This document shows, one piece after another, positions 3,166 to 26,214 of a stretch of DNA of 54,775 nt (position 1 is its first letter; each line of letters begins with the position of its first letter). The notes beneath the pieces were generated by a model, which saw only the letters and a program-made list of their open reading frames with translations, had not been told where the DNA came from and searched no databases. The stretch spans positions 18,750 to 73,524 of the forward strand of contig NZ_BMOS01000014.1 in the NCBI RefSeq assembly GCF_014647195.1. Direction: 5' to 3'. The position numbers and the translations under genes were made by a program. This stretch comes from Oceanobacillus indicireducens. Its GTDB lineage: Bacteria > Bacillota > Bacilli > Bacillales > Amphibacillaceae.

Positions 3166-4044
3166 CTATTTGGCACTTACTGCGAGCATCCGGTCTAAAT
3201 TTTTAAATTCGAGCGATTCCAGTTTCGGTTCAATCTTTGTTCGATCGAATCTTTTCTGTGCCGTTTCCAGCTCACAAGAGACGGGTACATCACATTTAAT
3301 TTCAGCAAGTTCCCTTGAAATGTGAAGCATCTCAAGATCGGTTTCTAATTTGGTACGGATCCCTTTTGTTAATTGATCCGTATTAGCTAGAAGTCCTTCA
3401 ATGGATTGATACTCTTTAATTAATCGAAGCGCGGTCTTTTCCCCTATTCCTTTTACACCTGGGTAATTATCTGCGCTATCTCCCATTAATGCTTTCATAT
3501 CAACGACTTGGTGTGGATATATCCCTTTTTTCTCAAAGAAGTTTTCTCTTGTAAACAATTCATAGTTCCCTTGTCCTTTTCTCATGATCGAGACGTGTAT
3601 ATTCTCATCAACTAGTTGAAGCATATCCTGATCTCCTGTTAGAACAATAACCTCGTGATCTGCTTGAAATAGACGAGCAAGCGTACCAATACAGTCATCC
3701 GCTTCATAATTTTCCAGACCGACATTTGGAATGTTGAAAGCTTCGACGACTTCTTTAATTAAGTCAAATTGTGGTACAAGCTCTTCCGGGGGTGCTCCAC
3801 GGTTTGCTTTATAATCTGGATAAATTTCATTACGGAACGTTTTGCTCCCCATGTCCCAGCAACAAATTACGTGGCTCGGTTCATACGTGTCAACTGCATC
3901 AAGGAAATACCGTAAAAATTGATAAATTCCATTTGTTGGTATTCCTTCACTTGTTTTCATAAAGTTTCCTCGGAAGGCAGTAGCGAAAAATCCTCTAAAT
4001 AACAATGCCATTCCGTCTACTAATAAAATCTTATTCTTTTTCAT
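3166..4044 (-). CDS. ypcP: 5'-3' exonuclease (YpcP-like)
   Basis: A 292-residue stand-alone 5'-3' exonuclease homologous to the N-terminal domain of DNA polymerase I. It acts in removing RNA primers and flaps. Visible motifs include LLVDGMALLFRGFFA, the metal-ligand cluster YEADDCIGTLA, LTGDQDMLQLV, MGDSADNYPGVKGIGEKTA and the helix-hairpin-helix in the same stretch. It abuts dynA directly (dynA TAA followed at once by its ATG), as in B. subtilis, so the two are probably cotranscribed. Confidence 0.93.
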   Translation of the reverse strand: MKKNKILLVDGMALLFRGFFATAFRGNFMKTSEGIPTNGIYQFLRYFLDAVDTYEPSHVICCWDMGSKTFRNEIYPDYKANRGAPPEELVPQFDLIKEVVEAFNIPNVGLENYEADDCIGTLARLFQADHEVIVLTGDQDMLQLVDENIHVSIMRKGQGNYELFTRENFFEKKGIYPHQVVDMKALMGDSADNYPGVKGIGEKTALRLIKEYQSIEGLLANTDQLTKGIRTKLETDLEMLHISRELAEIKCDVPVSCELETAQKRFDRTKIEPKLESLEFKNLDRMLAVSAK

Positions 4045-7000: not shown

Positions 7001-7680
7001 CAAGCTGTAAAGGTTTGCCTGATACTTTCTTTGAAACTGGCAAATGATAATTCCTTTTCATTATGTTTATCAATCTGATTAATTATTAAATAAAATGGGA
7101 TTTGATTTTCTTGTAGTGATTGAAGAAAATACAAATTAACTTCAGATTGGACATGATTATAGTCCACGACATAAAACAGGACATCTACTAAGTGAAGTGC
7201 ACTCTCCGTCATTAAGCGGTCAGCATCATCCGCAGCATCAATCCCCGGTGTATCCATTAGCGCTGCTTTATGTGGTATAATTACTTCTTTCGTACTGATT
7301 TCGATTCGCTTAATTTCATCTTTATCTGTTGAATAGGCCTTAATCATATCAAGATCGTAAGGTTCCTGATACTCAATAGGATCCCCTTTGGTAAAGAAGA
7401 CTCTTGCCCAGCCCTCTCCAGATGTTAACTTAACAATATTTGCACTCGTTGGAATCGGACTTTTTGGCAAAATATCCTTTCCAAGCAGTGCATTAATCAT
7501 GGATGACTTTCCCGCTGAAAAATGTCCTGAGAAACTGACGACGAGCTCCTTATCATGTAACTTTTGATACAACTCCAATATTTTCTTTGCATTTTCCTCA
7601 TCATTATTTGCCTGCATCAGTTGATAAAGAGCTGCAAGCTGTTCTTCGTTCAACTCTGTTCCTGTATTAACCTGCACCAT
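4045..7680 (-). CDS. dynA: Dynamin family protein DynA (YpbR-like, two GTPase units)
   Basis: This 1211-residue protein is a head-to-tail fusion of two dynamin-like units. The first P-loop is GHFSAGKSSMINALLG (about residue 52) with DTPGIDAAD and NQID. The second is GAFSAGKSSFSNALIG (about residue 625) with DTPGADS and NAAD. Long coiled-coil stalks separate them. The B. subtilis homologue tethers and fuses membranes and helps cells survive phage and pore-forming agents (established). It starts at ATG 7680 after GGAGAAAG. The prophage is inserted only 36 bases upstream, in the likely promoter. Confidence 0.95.
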   Translation of the reverse strand: MVQVNTGTELNEEQLAALYQLMQANNDEENAKKILELYQKLHDKELVVSFSGHFSAGKSSMINALLGKDILPKSPIPTSANIVKLTSGEGWARVFFTKGDPIEYQEPYDLDMIKAYSTDKDEIKRIEISTKEVIIPHKAALMDTPGIDAADDADRLMTESALHLVDVLFYVVDYNHVQSEVNLYFLQSLQENQIPFYLIINQIDKHNEKELSFASFKESIRQTFTAWNIQPVEVFYTSLYDPSLTINEFNKVKTTLFSILENEGDTHFNIQASVKQVMEKHKSFLEQQYDELKSEIEMDEDVEQQLAHMETAEKLMRNLAKEPEELEETFQSELKQTLQNAYLMPKEVRDLAESYLEAEQPRFKVGLFGSKKKTEEERANRREEFEQLIQETIRSSIQWKLRDKYVQLLKDYALTDQALIEEVNNFSINYDHSDFEKLLKHGAQVNGEYVLNYTNDVASDIKAKFRRRSLDFLEVIQQALADKHAETLAKQETSSESLEEVRKVIDKYNKIQAELESKISVIDEVFAFPRVDEREWEQTLTEAKRKEDKFVIAEQSIYEKNQEETKTEIKAVVEAEAQPTNLSAEEMLKRIEQTITLTEKIPGFTDLITDLKRKQDRLKNRTFTIALFGAFSAGKSSFSNALIGENVLPVSPNPTTATVNRIHPITEEYPHGTVIVTMKQEAKLYEELTDMTDKFSPKGDTLDRLLTWIDKKNIAEDARLNKMYQAYIRAMMKGYIANKEYIGKKRTIPFDEFVAYVADETMACFVEAIDVYYDSPITRQGISLVDTPGADSVNARHTNVAFNYIKHADAILYVTYYNHALSRADRDFLLQLGRVKEAFQLDKMFFIVNAADLAESKEELQLVTTYVTDELTKLGIRNARLFPVSSKQSLSEKVKQLPLNGQMEAFESQFYSFIHHDLASLTIDSALWDMKRAYETMEHYISSITLDEADKEQQKERIKQDQTQAATYVRTYETDVYMQQLEQRIEKQLYYVIERLSIRYHDMFKEMFNPTTITENGRKATAELRNALENLIEYIQFELNQELQAVSLRMERHTLRLANEVYQAMHQRNKEINSLFALPDQFDYELYTPDYEEKMPAIQMKLFQPIIGKYKGTKAFFVQNEKETMKEELYQMLLPSVEKFIQANQERMVSGYKEQWQELIKVMKESTIQRLEQQVSNYFTILAAPAELPRLDDTLEQLEKLIMEEKVGVDI

Positions 7681-7716
7681 GAATACTTTCTCCTGCCCCT
7701 CTTAAAATAACGATTT

Positions 7717-7733
7717 TAATCTATTATACGTAA
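7717..7733. repeat. attL core, 17-bp direct repeat
   Basis: TAATCTATTATACGTAA is identical to 49310-49326. It flanks the prophage and lies 36 bases upstream of the dynA start. Read on the minus strand it contains TATAAT. Confidence 0.9.
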
Positions 7734-7752
7734 TAATTTTTATTGAACGCAA
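7723..7752 (-). promoter_or_regulatory. Putative dynA promoter created at attL
   Basis: On the minus strand TATAAT (7728-7723) lies inside the att core. The phage DNA beyond it offers TTGCGT (7752-7747) at 18-bp spacing. In the empty site the host sequence now at attR would supply TAGAAA at 17 bp. So the phage swaps the -35 region of the promoter (inference). Confidence 0.45.
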
Positions 7753-7848
7753 ATTACATCATTAAAACATGTACCCCTAATACTAACAATCGTTTAGTTG
7801 TTTTACAACTTTATTGGATATGTAAGATAAGGCAGGTTAATGAACCGA

Positions 7849-7882
7849 TTTGGGGCTACTTTTGGGGCTGAATTGGGGCTAC
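7849..7882 (+). repeat. Three direct TTGGGGCT repeats, probable integrase arm sites (left)
   Basis: TTGGGGCT occurs at 7850-7857, 7862-7869 and 7873-7880, spaced 11-12 bp, about 115 bp inside attL. The same TGGGGCT word recurs near attR. Spacing of about one helical turn and placement on both sides fit arm-type sites of a tyrosine integrase. Apart from these repeats and the terminator that follows, the stretch from attL to the kwaA-like gene holds no gene. Confidence 0.55.
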
Positions 7883-7928
7883 ATAATATCATGTGGGTAG
7901 GCTTTAAAACAACTGACGAATATAAATT

Positions 7929-7954
7929 AGACCGCTAATGCAGCGGTCTTTTTT
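7929..7954 (+). terminator. Plus-strand terminator at the phage left end
   Basis: AGACCGCT (7929-7936) and AGCGGTCT (7942-7949) with a T run form a terminator with no plus-strand gene before it in the lysogen. In the excised circular phage it would lie just downstream of the integrase gene across attP, which explains its orientation. Confidence 0.8.
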
Positions 7955-8043
7955 AAACTATTCAAACACTTGCGGGTAAACCAGAGGTATTAATGAGGAA
8001 ATATCTGGCTAATGTGGTGTTAGAGAGATGAGATATCGAGTTT

Positions 8044-8073
8044 AAAAAATATTTGCCGCTAAATACTAGCGGC
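8044..8073 (-). terminator. Terminator after the Kiwa-like cassette
   Basis: On the minus strand GCCGCTA and TAGCGGC (8073-8055) form a 7-bp stem followed by a T-rich tract. It lies immediately after the kwaA-like stop and keeps transcription from running into attL and dynA. Confidence 0.75.
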
Positions 8074-8081
8074 CAAATAAA

Positions 8082-8708
8082 TTAATATAAGTCATCTTCA
8101 TTTTTAGGTTTTGTTTTATGCTCGGTTAAAACATAAATATCCCCGATTAGATTTACCTTATTAACAGATAGTTGTCTTTTTGCAATGATTCTCAACTTTG
8201 ATTTACTTATTTTTGTAATATAAACATCTTCTTCTGCAGAAAACACATTGTATCCGCATATATTATATAAAGGATTCATAAATAGTTGATCGTTTTTAAC
8301 ATAAAAAGTACCAATGATTATAAATAATAGTAAATTTATTACTAAGCTTCTAGAACTACTTATGTCCATTGATAAGAGAGGTACTATGTAAGTGACTATA
8401 TACCCCATGGTATCCTCTCTAACAAATTCGGCATTTTTAATTACCCCCACTCTACCCTCAGTTTTTGTGTAAACTAAGAAGAAAAGACTGACTCCAAACA
8501 TGGATAAAAAAAACATAATCATTAAGCCAATCCAAAAAAACGACTCAGTAGTGCTATTGTTAATAAATTGGTTTAGGAATTGATTAAACGATAGGATTTC
8601 CCCATGCTTATCATAAATACGAATGTTTTGAACCATAAGTAATAAATACAAAGGTATAAAAGATGACAGGTAGAAGAGTATTTTTTGAATTGTTCGATTG
8701 AACTTCAT
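8082..8708 (-). CDS. kwaA: Putative KwaA, membrane subunit of a Kiwa anti-phage system
   Basis: This 208-residue protein has about four membrane segments: FYLSSFIPLYLLLMV near the N-terminus, FFWIGLMIMFFLSMFGVSLF, GYIVTYIVPLLS and LVINLLLFIIIGTFYV. Then comes MNPLYNICGYNVF and a hydrophilic C-terminal tail. Topology, size and the neighbouring DUF4868/KwaB-like gene fit KwaA, which forms a membrane oligomer working with KwaB (established for Kiwa). The order here is B then A, the reverse of the described E. coli system. The start is ATG 8708 after GGGGGATGAG. The family call rests partly on context. Confidence 0.6.
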   Translation of the reverse strand: MKFNRTIQKILFYLSSFIPLYLLLMVQNIRIYDKHGEILSFNQFLNQFINNSTTESFFWIGLMIMFFLSMFGVSLFFLVYTKTEGRVGVIKNAEFVREDTMGYIVTYIVPLLSMDISSSRSLVINLLLFIIIGTFYVKNDQLFMNPLYNICGYNVFSAEEDVYITKISKSKLRIIAKRQLSVNKVNLIGDIYVLTEHKTKPKNEDDLY

Positions 8709-8733: not shown

Positions 8734-9651
8734 TTATTGTGTAATGTCCTCCCCGATACGTCCCAACATAAGAGAAAGATAGTAAGCATCGGCGATACAG
8801 AAGAGTATTTGGCTCCTAACTTCCCTGTTACTCATATACACTATTTGACCTTCCTCATTTAATTCAATATCTAAGTCTGCTTCAGCAATTACACCAGGTA
8901 ATAGGTGTGCCATCTCTAGAAATCCTTCTATACGTCCTGGAGTGTTTATAATTTTGGTTATCCTTTTAGATGCTTGTCTATCATTTAAACAGTCGTCTCT
9001 AAATTCTCCAAAATTCGCTATTACATTTCCGTCTTGAATTCTGTCCAATGCCTCAGTAGCTCTTCCAATAAAATAGTCGCTTAAATTAAAAATTGTTTGT
9101 AAAGCAAATCTATTAACGATTAGCATTTCACCTCGAAAAACTAATATATCAACATCCCTATCTAATCCTATAAACAATTCATTGTCTACCTTTCTTAAGG
9201 TATTATCTTCAATTACTCCTAAAATTCCACGTCTTATCTTTTTCATCTTAGTAAACCTTCTAAAAACATACATTGACTCACCATTATGAGTAAATCTTAT
9301 ACAGTAAAAATTAATTGATTCTAGATCTAACTCCCCTAAATCACCGTGAATATTATCTTCTTCCTCAATTTCCTCTATGGTATCGTTAACGTAGGCAACT
9401 TCCAAATTAGCTACAGCTAAGTATCCATCTTGTCCAACGTTAGGATTATATTGTTCTTGGGGTAATTCGAATAACCTCATTTGAAATACTTCATTGTATA
9501 ATCCTTTTAGCTCTCTCCTTACGGTTCTATGCACTGCTGGTTCAAACACTTCGTAATTTGTCCCTATTTTTTGCACTAATTTCACTGAAACCGATGCTGG
9601 GTTTGTTGTATCAAGCCCTTGCAAGAATTGATTAACTTCATTAATATTCAA
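8734..9651 (-). CDS. kwaB: Putative KwaB (DUF4868), Kiwa anti-phage protein
   Basis: A soluble 305-residue protein with the DUF4868/KwaB pattern. The middle has FYCIRFTHNGESMYVFRRF and the end of that domain LDRDVDILVFRGEMLIVNRF, leading into LQTIFNLSDYFIGRATEAL. KwaB of E. coli Kiwa is about 315 residues and acts with membrane protein KwaA against phage DNA events (established). The next gene is a four-helix membrane protein 25 bases on. The likely start is TTG 9651 behind GGGGGGAT. The pair lies after the endolysin terminator, so it probably has its own promoter and is expressed in the lysogen. Confidence 0.75.
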   Translation of the reverse strand: MNINEVNQFLQGLDTTNPASVSVKLVQKIGTNYEVFEPAVHRTVRRELKGLYNEVFQMRLFELPQEQYNPNVGQDGYLAVANLEVAYVNDTIEEIEEEDNIHGDLGELDLESINFYCIRFTHNGESMYVFRRFTKMKKIRRGILGVIEDNTLRKVDNELFIGLDRDVDILVFRGEMLIVNRFALQTIFNLSDYFIGRATEALDRIQDGNVIANFGEFRDDCLNDRQASKRITKIINTPGRIEGFLEMAHLLPGVIAEADLDIELNEEGQIVYMSNREVRSQILFCIADAYYLSLMLGRIGEDITQ

Positions 9652-9841: not shown

Positions 9842-10684
9842 TCATTTAACTCTTAAGCGTTGTCCTGGCTGAATAACATCACTCGTCAAGCCATTCAAGC
9901 TCTTGATAGCATTAACAGTAGTATTATACTGTTGAGCGATTCCCCATAAGGTTTCTCCACTTTTTACAGTATGATAAACAGCCCCGCCACCACTGACAAT
10001 TAACACTTGTCCAGGCTGAATGACATCCCCAGTTAATCCGTTTAAATCTTTCAGCTGCTGTACAGTCATGTTGTGGGCTTGAGCAATACTCCAAAGTGTA
10101 TCCCCTTTTTTAACAGTGTACGTATTACCTCCACCGCCGGACTTTCTTTTCAATCCTAAGGCTTGTGCAATGCCATTTGCATGTCCTAATGCAATACGAT
10201 TCAGGTATGCATCTGATTTGAGCTTATTTGCATCGGCCACCGTATCAATGAATCCATTTTCGGTTAACACAGCTGGCATGTTTGATTCGCGCAAGACATG
10301 GAAATTCGCACGTTTCTTCCCACGATTTCTAAAGTCCACTTGCTTCATCACTTCTGCATGTAGCTTATCGCGATACGTTACAGTATTGCTGGACACACTA
10401 CCATTGTAAATGTAATCTTCATAGCCGGTACCACCACCAGCATTGATGTGGATTGATACAAAGTAATCAGCTCCCCAACTATTTGCATCATTAGTACGTT
10501 GTGCTAAGCTAAATGTCTTATCGGTTGTCCGACTCATTCGGATGCTATGCCCTTCATAATCCCGATTCAAAATATCGCGGACTTTTAGAGCAATTTTTAA
10601 CGTTACATCTTTCTCCTTAAGTCCATTGGCTTGTGCTCCTGGGTCCGTACCACCGTGTCCTGGGTCTAAATAAATTTTACTCAT
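9842..10684 (-). CDS. Endolysin: N-acetylmuramoyl-L-alanine amidase with two LysM domains
   Basis: This 280-residue protein cleaves the amide bond between muramic acid and the peptide of the host wall. An Amidase_3 domain occupies about residues 1-175, with zinc ligands in DPGHGG, the SIHINAGGG motif and the catalytic glutamate in LTENGF. Two LysM repeats ([20 protein letters not shown] and [20 protein letters not shown]) follow. ATG 10684 after AGGAGGAGA is the right start; a longer frame exists but begins without family similarity. It follows the holin gene. Confidence 0.95.
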
Positions 10685-10715
10685 TATAAATCTCCTCCTA
10701 ATAATTTTTATTATT

Positions 10716-10749
10716 AAAAAAGTGGCTTGCCCGTTTGGACTAGCCACTT
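10716..10749 (-). terminator. Hairpin between holin and endolysin
   Basis: On the minus strand AAGTGGCT and AGCCACTT pair across a 14-base loop and are followed directly by TTTTTAATAAT. It looks like an intrinsic terminator or attenuator inside the lysis cassette, upstream of the endolysin ribosome site. Confidence 0.65.
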
Positions 10750-10776
10750 GATTAATCAATTGTTTTATAAAGTGTG

Positions 10777-22251: not shown

Positions 22252-22282
22252 AAAATAAAAAGAGTGAGCAATAGCCCACTCC
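22252..22282 (-). terminator. Terminator after the major tail protein
   Basis: On the minus strand GAGTGGGC and GCTCACTC pair with one wobble, followed by TTTTTATTTTG. Partial termination here would keep structural head/tail genes high relative to downstream tail genes. Confidence 0.8.
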
Positions 22283-22298
22283 TTGATATAGCCCTGTG

Positions 22299-22361
22299 TT
22301 ATTGCCACGTTAAATGCGCGCTAGTGTCCGTTGACGTAGCATTAACATTTACGGGCTTACG
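22299..22361 (-). other. +1 frameshift tag on the major tail protein
   Basis: The tail protein ends AAT CCC TCG TAA. If the tRNA on CCC slips forward one base to CCT, reading continues CGT AAG and gives RKPVNVNATSTDTSAHLTWQ, then stop. The tag is exactly 20 residues, like the capsid tag, and shares PVN, A, TDT, L and W at the same positions. It resembles strands A and B of an FN3 domain. Frameshifting itself is inferred from these features and from the known +1 frameshifts in capsid and tail genes of Listeria phage PSA. Confidence 0.7.
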
Positions 22362-22992
22362 AGGGATTATCTTCTCCTGTATCTTCATTATCATCGTTTT
22401 CATCTTTTTTACCTGGAAGTTCAGAAGCAACCTTCGGATCATATACCACATCTGCAAACCATTCATCAGTTGTAACGATTTCTGAACTAAGTCGTGCTCT
22501 CCACTCACCGTTATAGCGTAGTGGAGTAAACTTAATCGATAAATTTACGTCTTTAGCGTCAATTGTTCCTTGGTCTGTTTCATGATCAATACCCATAACA
22601 GTTGGAGTACCTTTTAATAACCAATAGAAACGGGTTCCGCCACCTCGTATCTTAGCTTCGAATCCTAATGCAATTTCCTTTTTAATATCATCTTTATTAC
22701 TGAAAATAACACCGTTGACCACTTTCTCGCCAAACATAGCAATTTGAAAACTTTCGGGTAAATCGACTGCAGCCATTTCTACATCGAAACTTTCAAAGCT
22801 ATCTAATACAGCAAATGGTCCATTATCCGCCCATTTAATTTCTTGGTTTTCATTCGGTGTACCACTTACACTAACTGCCCCTTCAATGCGTTGTACCTCA
22901 TCATATTCAACACCTGTTCTATCATCTTTTTCTAAAACTGCTCCGTGGAAATTTGATAAACCATGAATTAATCTTGCTTTATTTTTCGTCAT
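22357..22992 (-). CDS. Major tail tube protein (phi13 family)
   Basis: A 211-residue protein resembling the phi13-type major tail proteins of Gram-positive siphophages (RIEGAVSVSGTPNENQEIKW, DLPESFQIAMFGEKV, NGEWRARLSSEIVTTDEWFA). It polymerises into the tail tube. The C-terminal 15 residues are acidic and low complexity, ending in NPS at a CCC-T site that can shift +1 into a 20-residue tag. ATG 22992 follows a ribosome site overlapping the previous gene end. Confidence 0.9.
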   Translation of the reverse strand: MTKNKARLIHGLSNFHGAVLEKDDRTGVEYDEVQRIEGAVSVSGTPNENQEIKWADNGPFAVLDSFESFDVEMAAVDLPESFQIAMFGEKVVNGVIFSNKDDIKKEIALGFEAKIRGGGTRFYWLLKGTPTVMGIDHETDQGTIDAKDVNLSIKFTPLRYNGEWRARLSSEIVTTDEWFADVVYDPKVASELPGKKDENDDNEDTGEDNPS

Positions 22993-23387
22993 TACTCATC
23001 ATCTCCATAAAAGTTTTTCTCGTAGCGCAAAGCCACGTGATAAAGTTTTGTATCTGTTTCAAAAAGCGGTTGATGATCGTACTTACCGTATTCTAACGAT
23101 TTCATGATTCTATCAACCGCCTTAATCATTGCTTTTTCGTGGATAATTGATTCTGAATCTGTAAAAATACTCACTTGGAAATTAACAGTCGCTCGTACTT
23201 CTTCCCCGTCAGCATAAACTGTCGGTCTATTATTTAATTGACTGTAAACAATGCGGGGAAAGGGTGCATCTTGTTTTGCCACTAAATTATGAAAGCCACC
23301 CTTTGATAGAGTGGCCAGTTCTTCATCGTTTCGTAACGCACTAAGCAATTCAGCTTGTGCATCATAGTTACCTAAGTCTGTTGTCAC
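22992..23387 (-). CDS. Tail terminator/completion protein
   Basis: 131 residues from GTG 23387, whose GTGA overlaps the stop of the HK97 gp10-like gene and follows GGAGAGG. A longer frame upstream only re-reads that gene in another phase. Content (PFPRIVYSQLNNRPTVYADG, then RATVNFQVSIFTDSES) fits the tail completion proteins that cap the tail tube at the head side. Position between gp10-like and major tail genes agrees. Confidence 0.75.
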   Translation of the reverse strand: MTTDLGNYDAQAELLSALRNDEELATLSKGGFHNLVAKQDAPFPRIVYSQLNNRPTVYADGEEVRATVNFQVSIFTDSESIIHEKAMIKAVDRIMKSLEYGKYDHQPLFETDTKLYHVALRYEKNFYGDDE

Positions 23388-23770
23388 GAGATCACCCTCT
23401 CCATCACATTCATCATTGCTTGTGCAACTTGGCTTTCTGTTTGGCTTAAAGAATTTCCCACTGGTGATTGCGGCGCTTGGTAGGATGTTCCGTATTCCAC
23501 AAACTTTGCGCGCCATCGAAGGGACATTTTAGGAGCAATGTTTATCCTCCTACCTTCCGCACTTTCAGTCGGTCGCCCAATACGGATATTATCAGCGATA
23601 TGCTCACCGTCTGCACCGGAGCGATTCCAGTTTTGTTCTTGCTTCCTTTTGACAATCTCAGCACCTGCTTTTAAAGATTCATCTTCAATCTTTGTGAGTT
23701 CATCAGTGGCCATCCCTTCGAATTCAGTTGCTAATTCTTCAAAACCGGCAAAGTCCATTTTGAAGCCCAT
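23384..23770 (-). CDS. HK97 gp10-like tail-completion protein
   Basis: 128 residues of the HK97-gp10 family: FAGFEELATEFEGMATDELT near the N-terminus and KAGAEIVKRKQEQNWNRSG with DNIRIGRP later. It acts at the head-tail junction/tail completion step. Start at ATG 23770 behind GAGGTGAG. It is coupled to the next gene by a GTGA overlap. Confidence 0.85.
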   Translation of the reverse strand: MGFKMDFAGFEELATEFEGMATDELTKIEDESLKAGAEIVKRKQEQNWNRSGADGEHIADNIRIGRPTESAEGRRINIAPKMSLRWRAKFVEYGTSYQAPQSPVGNSLSQTESQVAQAMMNVMERVIS

Positions 23771-24151
23771 CTATCTCACCTCATTCACAATGAACTCATG
23801 CTCAATATTTTTTTCTTCCAAGTTATTTAGATATTCAATCTCAAAAATGCGACCTTTATAGTTAAGGCGTAGTTTCTCGCCTAACTCATAGTACTTTTCC
23901 TCCACATCCTTGCGGTAACGAGTGTTTATTCTGGCTGATATTTTTGCTTGTGCAGCACCAGCCATAATAAATTCGTTACCACGGATGTTTCGTATCTGGG
24001 CATAGGTGGTCCCGAGATCACTTTTTTTCCAACCTTCTATCCAATGTCCATCGTCGTTTTGGTATTCTTTCAATTCTTCGTAATGGACAAGCTTGTTAAA
24101 TCTTGCCGGGTTATTTAGTTGATTCATTGTTGTGATAGATGATTTATTCAT
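23771..24151 (-). CDS. Head closure protein (SPP1 gp16-like)
   Basis: 126 residues of the phage head-tail joining family: PARFNKLVHYEELKEYQND near the N-terminus, GTTYAQIRNIRGNEFIMAGA and the closing RIFEIEYLNNLEEKN. It plugs the portal-connector channel after packaging. It overlaps the connector gene by eight bases. Confidence 0.87.
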   Translation of the reverse strand: MNKSSITTMNQLNNPARFNKLVHYEELKEYQNDDGHWIEGWKKSDLGTTYAQIRNIRGNEFIMAGAAQAKISARINTRYRKDVEEKYYELGEKLRLNYKGRIFEIEYLNNLEEKNIEHEFIVNEVR

Positions 24152-24410
24152 TTTTAATCAATCCCGCCTGTAAAAGCATGCTCGTAAGTGTACGATCTAA
24201 TTCCTGGGCAATTGCTGTATTTCTATTTTCATACCAGCTGGTTACAAGAAGAATAACTATCTGTTTATGAATATGTTTTTCTTTATCAAATTCTTGTCCA
24301 GTAGCATTCTTTAAATAATCTTGAGCCGTAGCAATAAGATGTTTCAATAACTCATCATCATGCTCGTAGTGCTCGTCCAATCGTAGGAACTGTTTGACCA
24401 AGGAAAGCAT
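24144..24410 (-). CDS. Head-tail connector (gp6-like)
   Basis: An 88-residue helical protein starting MLSLVKQFLRLDEHYEHDDE with the LLKHLIATAQDYLKNATG motif typical of gp6/gp15-like head-tail connectors. It sits under the portal ring. Its ATG overlaps the stop of the preceding gene (TAATG). Confidence 0.9.
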   Translation of the reverse strand: MLSLVKQFLRLDEHYEHDDELLKHLIATAQDYLKNATGQEFDKEKHIHKQIVILLVTSWYENRNTAIAQELDRTLTSMLLQAGLIKNE

Positions 24411-24865
24411 TAGCCTTCACCCTCTTCGGGTTCATCCGGCTCCTCTGGTGGATCTGGTTCGATTACGTTAACAGTTGCGGTGTCAGAAATACCTTCCGCA
24501 CTAACCGTAATTGTCGCTGTACCAGTACTGACAGCCGTCACCGTACCGTTGCTTACTGTGGCCACGTCTTCATCGCTAGAAGACCAGGAAACATCCTGTT
24601 TAGCTGTAGAAGGTTCTACTTTTGCCGTTAAATTACGGGTTGCGCCAACCTCCAGGTTATTTGTTTTCGGTGATACAGAGACAGATTCCACATCGCTGTA
24701 TTTTGTTTTAACCATAACTGTAGCTTTTTCGGATTCTTTATCACCAATAACTTCCGACACAGAAAAAGAGTACTCTGTGTTTGGAGTTAAACCTTCAACA
24801 GTGTACTCTTTATCCTCAATAGCTTCAGCAATCAATTCTTCATCTTGATATACATTGTAAGGCAT
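24410..24865 (-). CDS. Ig-like protein: C-terminal FN3 part plus Big_2 domain
   Basis: 151 residues. Residues 1-53 (MPYNVYQDEELIAEAIEDKE, then YTVEGLTPNTEYSFSVSEV and ESEKATVMVKT) match strands C to G of a fibronectin type III domain but lack strands A and B. Residues 55-137 form a Big_2 Ig-like domain (VSVSPKTNNLEVGATRNLTA, WSSSDEDVATVSNGTVTAVS, GTATITVSAEG). The tail is acidic and proline-rich. Such domains decorate phage heads and tails and bind sugars weakly (established). ATG 24865 lies after AAAGGAG. It directly follows the capsid gene, whose frameshift tag looks like the missing FN3 strands. Confidence 0.85.
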   Translation of the reverse strand: MPYNVYQDEELIAEAIEDKEYTVEGLTPNTEYSFSVSEVIGDKESEKATVMVKTKYSDVESVSVSPKTNNLEVGATRNLTAKVEPSTAKQDVSWSSSDEDVATVSNGTVTAVSTGTATITVSAEGISDTATVNVIEPDPPEEPDEPEEGEG

Positions 24866-24901
24866 AGTAATCTCCTTTCTATCTATTGAAAATAGCCCTG
24901 T

Positions 24902-24956
24902 TTAAAGGCTAGTCCCACACTAAATTAACTGTGGTATCAGTTGCACTAGCCTTTAA
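24902..24956 (-). other. RNA hairpin overlapping the capsid frameshift tag
   Basis: A perfect 12-bp stem (24902-24913 with 24945-24956) encloses an inner CCACA/TGTGG pair. It begins about 15 bases after the CCC-T shift site and is not followed by a proper T run. It might stimulate frameshifting or tune expression of the next gene. Confidence 0.45.
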
Positions 24957-24971
24957 GTTCACGGGCTGTTT
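24909..24971 (-). other. +1 frameshift tag on the major capsid protein
   Basis: The capsid gene ends ACA CCC TAA. Slipping from CCC to CCT (+1) continues with AAA CAG and yields KQPVNLKASATDTTVNLVWD, then stop. The 20-residue tag resembles FN3 strands A and B and aligns without gaps with the tail protein tag (9 of 20 identical). The stop directly after CCC is a favourable +1 context. Known precedent: capsid and tail genes of Listeria phage PSA. Confidence 0.72.
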
Positions 24972-26214
24972 AGGGTGTTTCCTCTTCAGTTTTTTCTGTA
25001 AAGTCAATTACAATAACTGATTTTTCGTCTAGAATACGAACATCTTGACGTACTGCTACCATTAAAGCTTCACCGAAATGCATATAGTTAGTCCAAGATG
25101 CTTGATACTGGGAGCGATCGAACAGTACAATACCATCTTTTAAGTTTCCGATGATAATTGTATTTTCGCTGTTTTTTCCGATCATTTCATCCGGGAGAAC
25201 TTCTACGCGTGCGCCAAGCAGGCGTTTTGCCGTTGGTTCTTTTACATCCGGCTGTAACAAGTAATTTCCTTGTTTGTCCTTCAGTTTATCGAGTGTAGCA
25301 AATGCTGTTTGGGAAACAATAGCAATGTTGTGATCGTAGTTAGGTTTAAGATTTAAATTAATAGCATCTTTAATGCCATCAATCCCTACAGCTTCCTTTT
25401 GTACGAACTTAAGAGTAGATGGTTCTCCGTTAATCTTTCCAGGTGTACCATTTTTGATAGCGTTAATAATCGCTTTATTTCGTGTAGATGCGATAGTACG
25501 AGCCATCCATGTCATTAATTCGGATAAAACATTGACTGCTGCATCTTCAATTGCTTCACGAGAAACAAGGAAGTAGCCACGATATGTTTTAATCTCATAC
25601 CCTAATTGGTAGAATGGTTTAACAGCAAGTGCAGGGTTTTCTTCCAATTCTGCTACTTCAGGGAGTGCCGCAACTTCTGATTCACGGACAACAGGGAATT
25701 TCCCGCTACCGTTTGCAACTGATTTTACAGTCACATATTGATCTAAGTTAAATTCCTTTTCCTTCAACTTCATAATATCTGTAACAACTTGTTCAGGGAT
25801 AACTACGAAACCTGAGTCTGTTTTTAACTTATCCCCATCAATTTCACGTGTTTCGAGATAATTTTCGAATGCCTGGCGCTGTTCTTCATTAGGTTCAATT
25901 CTTGTTCCATCATCAACTTGACGATACCGAGACATATCAACATCGCGCTCTTCCGGTTCTCCCCCCTCCCGTCCATCAGCCGGTTTCGTACCATCCATCG
26001 CACGCTGGCGGGCTTCGATTTCTTCTTTTTCTTCATTCAATTCACGGACTTCCTTTTCTAAATCGGTGAATTTCGTGTCACCACGTTTTTCGTCATCTTC
26101 CAGCATCCCGCGTATTTCTGCCAAGCGATCAGTAATTTCTTTTAACCGTTTGCCGTCTTTGTCACCATTGAAAAACTGTAATTTCATTTCTAATTTTTTC
26201 TTTTTAATCGTCAT
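24970..26214 (-). CDS. Major capsid protein, HK97 fold
   Basis: 414 residues. The first ~100 are a charged coiled coil (KRLKEITDRLAEIRGMLED) that acts as an internal scaffold and should be removed by the prohead protease. The rest is the HK97 coat domain, with PVVRESEVAALPEVAELEEN, YRGYFLVSREAIEDAAVNVL and LFDRSQYQASWTNY. ATG 26214 overlaps the protease stop (TAATG) with AGGAGG upstream. The gene ends in a CCC TAA +1 shift site. Confidence 0.95.
   Translation of the reverse strand: MTIKKKKLEMKLQFFNGDKDGKRLKEITDRLAEIRGMLEDDEKRGDTKFTDLEKEVRELNEEKEEIEARQRAMDGTKPADGREGGEPEERDVDMSRYRQVDDGTRIEPNEEQRQAFENYLETREIDGDKLKTDSGFVVIPEQVVTDIMKLKEKEFNLDQYVTVKSVANGSGKFPVVRESEVAALPEVAELEENPALAVKPFYQLGYEIKTYRGYFLVSREAIEDAAVNVLSELMTWMARTIASTRNKAIINAIKNGTPGKINGEPSTLKFVQKEAVGIDGIKDAINLNLKPNYDHNIAIVSQTAFATLDKLKDKQGNYLLQPDVKEPTAKRLLGARVEVLPDEMIGKNSENTIIIGNLKDGIVLFDRSQYQASWTNYMHFGEALMVAVRQDVRILDEKSVIVIDFTEKTEEETP

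Follow-up and report, generated by a model that had tools for sequence, protein, structure and literature searches.

A likely fibronectin type III domain divided between predicted +1 frameshift tags on phage capsid and tail tube proteins and a separately encoded partner in Oceanobacillus indicireducens

We describe two short peptides encoded in the +1 frame at the ends of two phage structural genes, those of the major capsid protein and the major tail (tube) protein, in a 54,775-nucleotide (nt) stretch of Oceanobacillus indicireducens contig NZ_BMOS01000014.1, together with the gene that follows the capsid gene, whose product appears to hold the rest of the FN3 domain that the peptides begin. 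This whole stretch is referred to as the window, and all feature coordinates are in its numbering. A first-pass annotation had stated that the capsid gene ends in ACA CCC TAA with a +1 frame reading KQPVNLKASATDTTVNLVWD and then a stop, and that the tail gene ends in AAT CCC TCG TAA with a +1 frame reading RKPVNVNATSTDTSAHLTWQ and then a stop; both statements are borne out by the sequence, as are the equal length of the two tags (20 residues each), their nine identical positions (P, V, N, A, T, D, T, L and W) and the presence of ACAGGGCTAT in the DNA 3′ of both stops. This shared sequence includes the 3′ arm of an RNA stem predicted around each tag. Each of the two genes has CCC-U at or just before its zero-frame stop and an open +1 frame beyond it. 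The features of the locus, all on the minus strand, are as follows.

24970..26214, minus strand: major capsid protein, HK97 family, 414 amino acids (aa), zero-frame form (PF05065, E 6e-45; phrog_10, 4.7e-71)
24972..24975, minus strand: capsid CCC-U slip site, overlapping the capsid stop UAA (sequence)
24912..24971, minus strand: capsid +1 tag KQPVNLKASATDTTVNLVWD, FN3 strands A-B (sequence; strands predicted at residues 5-10 and 15-20 in the joined model described below)
24909-24911, minus strand: UAG stop closing the capsid tag (sequence)
24894..24967, minus strand: predicted capsid-tag RNA stem, AGCCC with GGGCU plus an inner pairing of AAAGGCUAGU with ACUAGCCUUU, around tag and stop (z -3.4; -4.9 on a shorter stretch)
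24872..24878, minus strand: likely ribosome binding site AAAGGAG of the partner gene (sequence)
24410..24865, minus strand: partner ("catcher") protein, FN3 without strands A-B (residues ~1-55), Big_2 and an acidic tail (Pfam and PHROG matches)
22357..22992, minus strand: major tail (tube) protein, 211 aa, zero-frame form (phrog_88, E 5.3e-41)
22362..22365, minus strand: tail-gene CCC-U slip site, one codon ahead of the stop (CCC UCG UAA; sequence)
22302..22361, minus strand: tail +1 tag RKPVNVNATSTDTSAHLTWQ, FN3 strands A-B (sequence)
22299-22301, minus strand: UAA stop closing the tail tag (sequence)
22290..22357, minus strand: predicted tail-tag RNA stem, AGCCC with GGGCU, enclosing tag and stop (z -2.3 without the terminator hairpin, -4.4 with it)
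22259..22284, minus strand: terminator-like hairpin followed by a T-run, 3′ of the tail gene (fold and sequence)

Pfam gave no match for the tail protein, and its gene precedes a tail chaperone gene (PF23857) and a 1392-aa open reading frame (ORF) of tape-measure size.

The key to the tags is what they leave out. FN3 domains start with strands A and B, and both tags resemble these two strands. The ORF that directly follows the capsid tag (24865-24410) starts at FN3 strand C: it has a Big_2 domain (1.2e-15), and its fn3 match covers only positions 47-82 of the 84-position profile. At three related loci, L017, L032 and L056 (L numbers are our handles for loci and G numbers for genomes), tag and partner happen to share one frame, and when the intervening UAG is taken as a residue the joined reading, a two-chain one, matches the full length of fn3, with 36.5 bits for L017 and 40.4 bits for L032 (both 2-83 of 84) and 46.5 bits for L056 (2-81 of 84). 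The partner alone was scored for the window (27.7 bits) and for L017 (25.2 bits), and both matches begin at profile position 47; the joined reading of the window itself was folded, the fn3 scan of joined readings being that of the three loci named. Three tags searched alone (20-21 residues) have no Pfam match, as is expected of such short sequences. The shifted extension of the window does not hold a complete Ig-like domain, since the tag has 20 residues and two predicted strands and the other strands lie in another ORF. The first-pass annotation was right to call the tag FN3-like, but its description was incomplete: each tag corresponds to the first two strands, and the missing ones lie in the product of the gene next to the capsid gene. 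The window yielded a single half-FN3 ORF, and the search of its own genome gave one match only.

Structure prediction agrees with this division. An AlphaFold model of the window tag joined to the partner, with the intergenic stretch as an artificial linker and an alignment (A1) containing six relatives, two of them partner-only, has two domains and a mean predicted local distance difference test score (pLDDT) of 90.9; tag residues 5-10 and 15-20 are confident strands, and the artificial linker (24-32) is below 50 pLDDT. The partner folded alone reaches 95.8, with the strand at its residues 20-23 missing; by FN3 topology this would be strand E, the neighbour of strand B. The best Foldseek matches of the joined model in the Protein Data Bank are the tandem Ig/FN3 proteins LigA, CD45, fibronectin and PTP delta (E ~1e-6 to 1e-5), with TM-scores mostly of 0.35-0.57 in the top rows, and these matches mirror the whole predicted two-domain model.

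The partner belongs to a family whose label we doubt. Its residues 3-134 of 151 align to positions 5-145 of the 154-position profile phrog_341, which is labelled "major tail protein", and ORFs matching it in several database phages carry that label or "chitinase". For partner-matching ORFs adjoining the capsid gene these labels look wrong, because the partner is a half-FN3/Big_2 protein by domain make-up and by position a neighbour of the capsid. Big_2 is also present in the partners at L106 and L107, and several relatives have similar sequence downstream of the half-FN3. At L011 (Lentibacillus populi, 7268-8493) a Thr-rich tail, which might be glycosylated, replaces Big_2, and the protein that comes after the partner, of 294 residues and matching phrog_4417 (unknown function), looks glycosyltransferase-like by eye and had no Pfam match at 0.1.

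Could two such tags have arisen by chance? We took all stop-to-stop frames of at least 120 codons in the window, on both strands and in both shifted frames (120 ends in total), and looked for a motif that rests on P, N, L and W. It matches at two of the 120 shifted ends, which are those of the capsid and tail tags, and shuffled downstream DNA gave 36 matches in 240,000 trials (0.00015 per end). Because the motif was composed after the tags were known, these figures are descriptive, and as such they agree with the earlier view that the tags exceed chance. Across all the loci collected by then, 47 of 1842 tests match, and all 47 are by eye tags of the same type, in a set that counts some places more than once (L035, L059, L101 and the window are one example) and contains loci found via the tag pattern.

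Relatives were collected by several routes: the capsid protein, the partner protein, the tail protein, a half-FN3 alignment or probe, and DNA patterns derived from the tags. Loci from the last route are selected for having a tag and those from the others are not. The most telling route is that of the partner protein, which was queried against 159 genomes of the family, 42 of which matched at 0.001. Many of the weaker matches, among which G076, G084 and G138 were inspected, cover Big_2 alone in long proteins. The matches at E < 1e-20 occupy seven places (the window's own, G019, two in G140, G141, G143 and G155), and a W-type tag lies directly upstream of the partner at all seven, although the search was independent of the tag. 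At six of them, G155 being the exception, a second tag follows on a frame of 194-212 codons some 2.4-2.8 kb downstream, which by size and position is the putative tail gene. Two tagged genes are present in the window, in L011 (found by capsid protein), in L014 (found by partner protein), in L024, L028 and L034 (found by tag DNA pattern), in five prophages of four genomes (L089-L093) and in L112 and G750. A later scan with the tag pattern matched four of 397 genomes (the window's own, G555, G750 and G652), and the match in G652 is not tag-like.

Ten untagged loci have a relative of the capsid protein and a visible capsid end (L001-L006, L008-L010 and L012, with L006 and L012 reading identically there), and at all ten the stretch examined lacks a half-FN3 ORF; L009 has an untagged tail protein 71% identical to that of the window. 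Three Staphylococcus phages with related capsids (that of PVL is 70.6% identical over the matched part) have neither tag nor half-FN3 ORF in the stretch examined. A tag was seen and no partner matched in the contigs of L015, L016, L025, L026 and L030; those of L025, L026 and L030 stop soon after the tag, that of L016 begins just ahead of it, and L015 resembles a tail end. When the half-FN3 alignment was searched across the whole class, 111 of 398 genomes matched, many of the listed matches being in frames of several hundred residues or more; the regions of G319, G024 and G226 were inspected.

The first-pass annotation had held that random stops and a lack of +1-frame conservation in related phages would tell against the tags. 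The relatives show the reverse: tag lengths are mostly 20-21 residues, with the stop one residue past W, the exceptions being the 23-residue capsid tag of L034 and the -1 capsid tags of two Enterococcus phages, which are several residues longer. Among 34 distinct tags, codon position 3 is the most variable in the tag frame (entropy 1.41 vs 0.81 and 0.81; Wilcoxon P 0.0004), an excess that neither of the other frames shows (P 0.93 and 0.98). Among 24 distinct tags, the ratio of nonsynonymous to synonymous differences (pN/pS) comes to 0.49 for the tag frame vs 1.05 and 1.52 for the other frames, the pairs being non-independent and pS high. Across 32 tags from 16 phages P3 and W20 never vary, and position 18 is L or I. 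Judged from sequence, then, related phages support the reading of twin +1 tags that the first-pass annotation had proposed. The capsid and tail tags of one phage are also more alike than tags across phages (0.52 vs 0.45, permutation P 0.001, in 16 phages, some of them near-duplicates). Such likeness is expected if both tags fit one partner, and shared ancestry via module duplication, together with the near-duplicate phages, could explain it too.

Slip sites in the relatives are CCC UAA or CCC UAG, in a scan restricted to CC[CT]T. Like tags on capsid and tail, and the same kind of half-FN3/Big_2 partner, occur in three Enterococcus phages (EC99P1, EF1c55 and BC611) with annotated capsids that differ from that of the window in size and neighbourhood. 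The capsid tag of EC99P1 lies in the +1 frame and its tail tag in the -1 frame, and in EF1c55 and BC611 both tags are in the -1 frame. Carnobacterium phage cd2 has +1 tags on both genes, at CCC UAA and beside AAA UAG. That the peptide is kept while frame and slip site change is most simply read as selection on the peptide. By eye, Enterococcus phage EH93P1 has a divergent, W-less +1 tag on the gene preceding the partner, and a similar divergent split, outside the motif, is seen at L095, L096 and L100. Complete FN3 domains are reached by a +1 shift at CCC UAA in two frames of G319 (L097), in one of L098 and in one of L099, and the tail protein of Bacillus phage 268TH003 would gain a complete FN3 by the same shift; in L097 these frames lie at 3976 and 6418, after frames of 328 and 177 codons that are spaced like capsid and tail. 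A further FN3 frame is present in L097 at 6750. The complete frameshift-appended FN3 is a likely candidate for the ancestral arrangement.

Two loci show related modules in other settings. In L107 (Latilactobacillus phage TMW 1.1381 P1, OQ240258, 4424-5454) an annotated baseplate protein is followed by an A-B-like tag in the -1 frame; the next protein comprises a half-FN3, Big_2 and an A-B-like hairpin of its own at the C-terminus, and the protein after that has another half-FN3 at its start and then a BppU Ig-like domain. From this order of modules, a chain is possible. L111 (G750) has on its minus strand, from ~2707 in reverse-complement coordinates, a 91-residue frame consisting of a half-FN3, an acidic linker and a C-terminal A-B-like hairpin, PGGLSSTGNTDTTVDLGWN; this protein, with one acceptor in view, might bind its own copies.

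We consider it likely that the tags and the protein encoded after the capsid gene form a split FN3 domain that works as a tag and catcher and places one decoration protein on both head and tail, the frameshift and the docking being the steps that we infer. In such a scheme some of the ribosomes that reach the end of the capsid or tail-tube gene would shift +1 on CCC-U, for which there is close precedent, aided by the proline codon, the overlapping or nearby stop and the predicted downstream RNA stem, and the subunits made in this way would carry a 20-residue A-B β hairpin. The sequence itself shows that the tag stops where strand B ends and that an FN3 starting at strand C, fused to Big_2, is encoded after the capsid gene. 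The separately made partner would then dock on the hairpins and complete the FN3 sandwich by strand complementation, by way of a conserved W in the tag and, in the partner, of conserved Y, L and Y residues, so that the copy number of the decoration on head and tail would be set by the frameshift rate. Among the tail tags listed, the next ORF is never a half-FN3, so their complement must come in trans if these tags are useful. Finally, Big_2, or its replacement in relatives, would act on the virion's exterior. By analogy with phage Ig-like domains in the literature the partner probably takes part in weak surface adhesion (PMC6316719, PMC8718954, PMC7602432).

Several observations weigh against this scheme. 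The tail site of the window has a codon between slip codon and stop (CCC UCG UAA). P and W (or F) were demanded by the scans, so the invariance of these residues is partly by construction, and the divergent W-less cases turned up by eye only. L032 has a capsid tag and a partner and an untagged tail, and at L017/L094 the tag is on a protein of phrog_2729 (virion structural protein), not on capsid or tail, with no second tag seen within the stretch read; L017 sits on a 132-kb contig. The linker of the joined model is absent in the cell, so that the model speaks to compatibility of fold and not to binding in trans, and, as the partner alone folds at 95.8, prediction fails to show a need for the tag. 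Lastly, conservation of the tag may be partly driven by RNA.

What, then, of the RNA? The first arm of the capsid stem starts 5 nt past CCC. In 26 of 30 tag regions the fold has z < -2 (the others being -1.95, -1.58, -1.02 and -1.0), and in 29 of the 30 the 5′ arm pairs beyond the tag stop, L015 forming a local hairpin. The pair counts are mixed, though mostly favourable: in the alignment A4, 78.6% of cells pair vs 72.3 in shuffles, 26 cells have changes on both sides vs 12.0, and the covariation score is 0.206 vs 0.138; further pair types are not unusual (reached by 92 of 500 shuffles), and sliding the alignment by one column leaves nearly as many double-change pairs, 9 vs 10. The share of cells that pair is 92% for helix 1 and 71.6% for helix 2. 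The low z scores and the excess of two-sided changes are what one would look for if the conserved element were an RNA structure, a frameshift stimulator or other, with the peptide incidental, yet the third-position excess is confined to the tag frame, the tags of the Enterococcus and Carnobacterium phages retain the peptide pattern at different slip sites and partly in the other shifted frame, and the peptide supplies what the partner lacks; we hold it most improbable that the RNA is the whole story. Or might the tags be expressed and act alone, as short adhesive or capsid-stabilizing extensions, beside a partner that is an unrelated Ig decoration protein? Extensions of other kinds do exist, as the +1 tags of Listeria phage PSA, which lack FN3 character, attest, but a tag that acts alone would not be expected to provide just those strands that the partner lacks, or to accompany the partner at seven of seven places, and we judge this explanation very unlikely.

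Two further alternatives concern the relation between tag and partner. The tags could be degraded remnants of a complete frameshift-appended FN3, and the half-FN3 ORF a restarted leftover, for which the complete FN3 at CCC UAA in related prophages (L097, L098 and L099) and in the tail of 268TH003 would be a plausible ancestor. Decay of this kind is hard to reconcile with a break just past W in both tags of many phages, with constraint on the evolution of the tags, with a partner gene that still has its ribosome site and starts at strand C, and with the persistence of tail tags whose next listed ORF is not a half-FN3, so that we think it very unlikely. Alternatively, read-through of the stop, a second shift or ribosome bypassing could link tag and partner covalently into a capsid-FN3-Big_2 protein, as the single UAG between in-frame tag and partner in L017, L032 and L056 might suggest. 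Against this, the distance from tag stop to first listed start varies from 21 to 53 nt and takes in all three frames (the listed start of L024 is TTG, with an ATG further on), and two of the five loci read, L011 and L034, carry an additional in-frame stop; this variable spacing and frame and these extra stops lead us to reject read-through or bypassing as a general mechanism. The partner moreover has a likely ribosome site of its own, and the listed tail tags lack a half-FN3 as next ORF. Overall, a covalent product appears highly improbable to us.

If the split-domain scheme is true, recoding adds half a domain, a tiny docking site on a share of capsid and tail subunits, with the dose set by the slip rate and the bulky, variable part supplied once in trans. 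It would explain why the same cryptic peptide is found on head and tail, would assign a function to the family that now bears the label "major tail protein", would make hidden Ig domains findable and would offer a natural display system. A wider possibility, to which we give an even chance, is that the split FN3 is a transferable grammar, in which A-B hairpins are added by +1 or -1 recoding to capsid, tail tube or baseplate, any protein starting at strand C can be mounted on them, and partners of the L107/G750 type, with their own A-B hairpin, could build non-covalent chains of modules. Elsewhere in the window, two adjacent ORFs of equal length (305 aa, TTG starts) lie on the minus strand at 8734-9651 and 9842-10759, and a duplication is possible.

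How does this arrangement compare with known systems? In the Bacillus subtilis phage SPP1, a +1 slip at the CCCUAA that ends the tail-tube gene 17.1 produces gp17.1*, with short and long forms at 3:1 in tails, and the 87-residue extension is described as an FN3 domain and is dispensable (PMC6316719, PMC7666168). The capsid site of the window, CCC UAA, matches that reported in SPP1 gene 17.1 (PMC6316719), but whereas SPP1 adds a whole FN3 to the tail, the window would add strands A-B to capsid and tail and leave the remainder to a separate protein. Listeria tail genes slip at CCC UGA and the PSA gene cps at ACA CCC (UCC GAA), and in PSA, A118 and A500 the capsid and tail genes (cps and tsh) are both frameshifted, as predicted here, with PSA shifting +1 on CCC at both (PMC5009743). 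The first-pass annotation was thus correct to cite PSA as a precedent for paired +1 shifts; the PSA tags themselves, when read, proved unrelated to those of the window, with no P-x-N-L...L-x-W pattern and no FN3 features, and PSA was accordingly rejected as their nearest relative. The tail genes of A118 and A500 are annotated with an Ig-like domain in their +1 frame, which by eye is a whole Big_2, and, unlike the window, these phages have annotated HeH/LEM sequence after the capsid. Ig or FN3 sequence is joined to phage structural proteins by +1 or -1 shifts (PMC5009743 and PMC6316719, on Fraser et al. 2006), and in these extensions, as reviewed, the domain is in one chain, whereas here it would be divided between two proteins. 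The CCC-U sites of the window are of the same kind as those of SPP1 and Listeria, and the new step would be that they encode strands A-B only, with the rest coming from a separate gene. No report of a split FN3 in phages turned up among the titles and abstract openings listed by searches of open-licence literature. A missing β strand or hairpin is supplied by another polypeptide in the donor-strand complementation of pili and in engineered split-Ig tag/catcher pairs. Compared with these, the acceptor here would be a putative virion decoration protein and the donor a predicted frameshift product carried on both head and tail.

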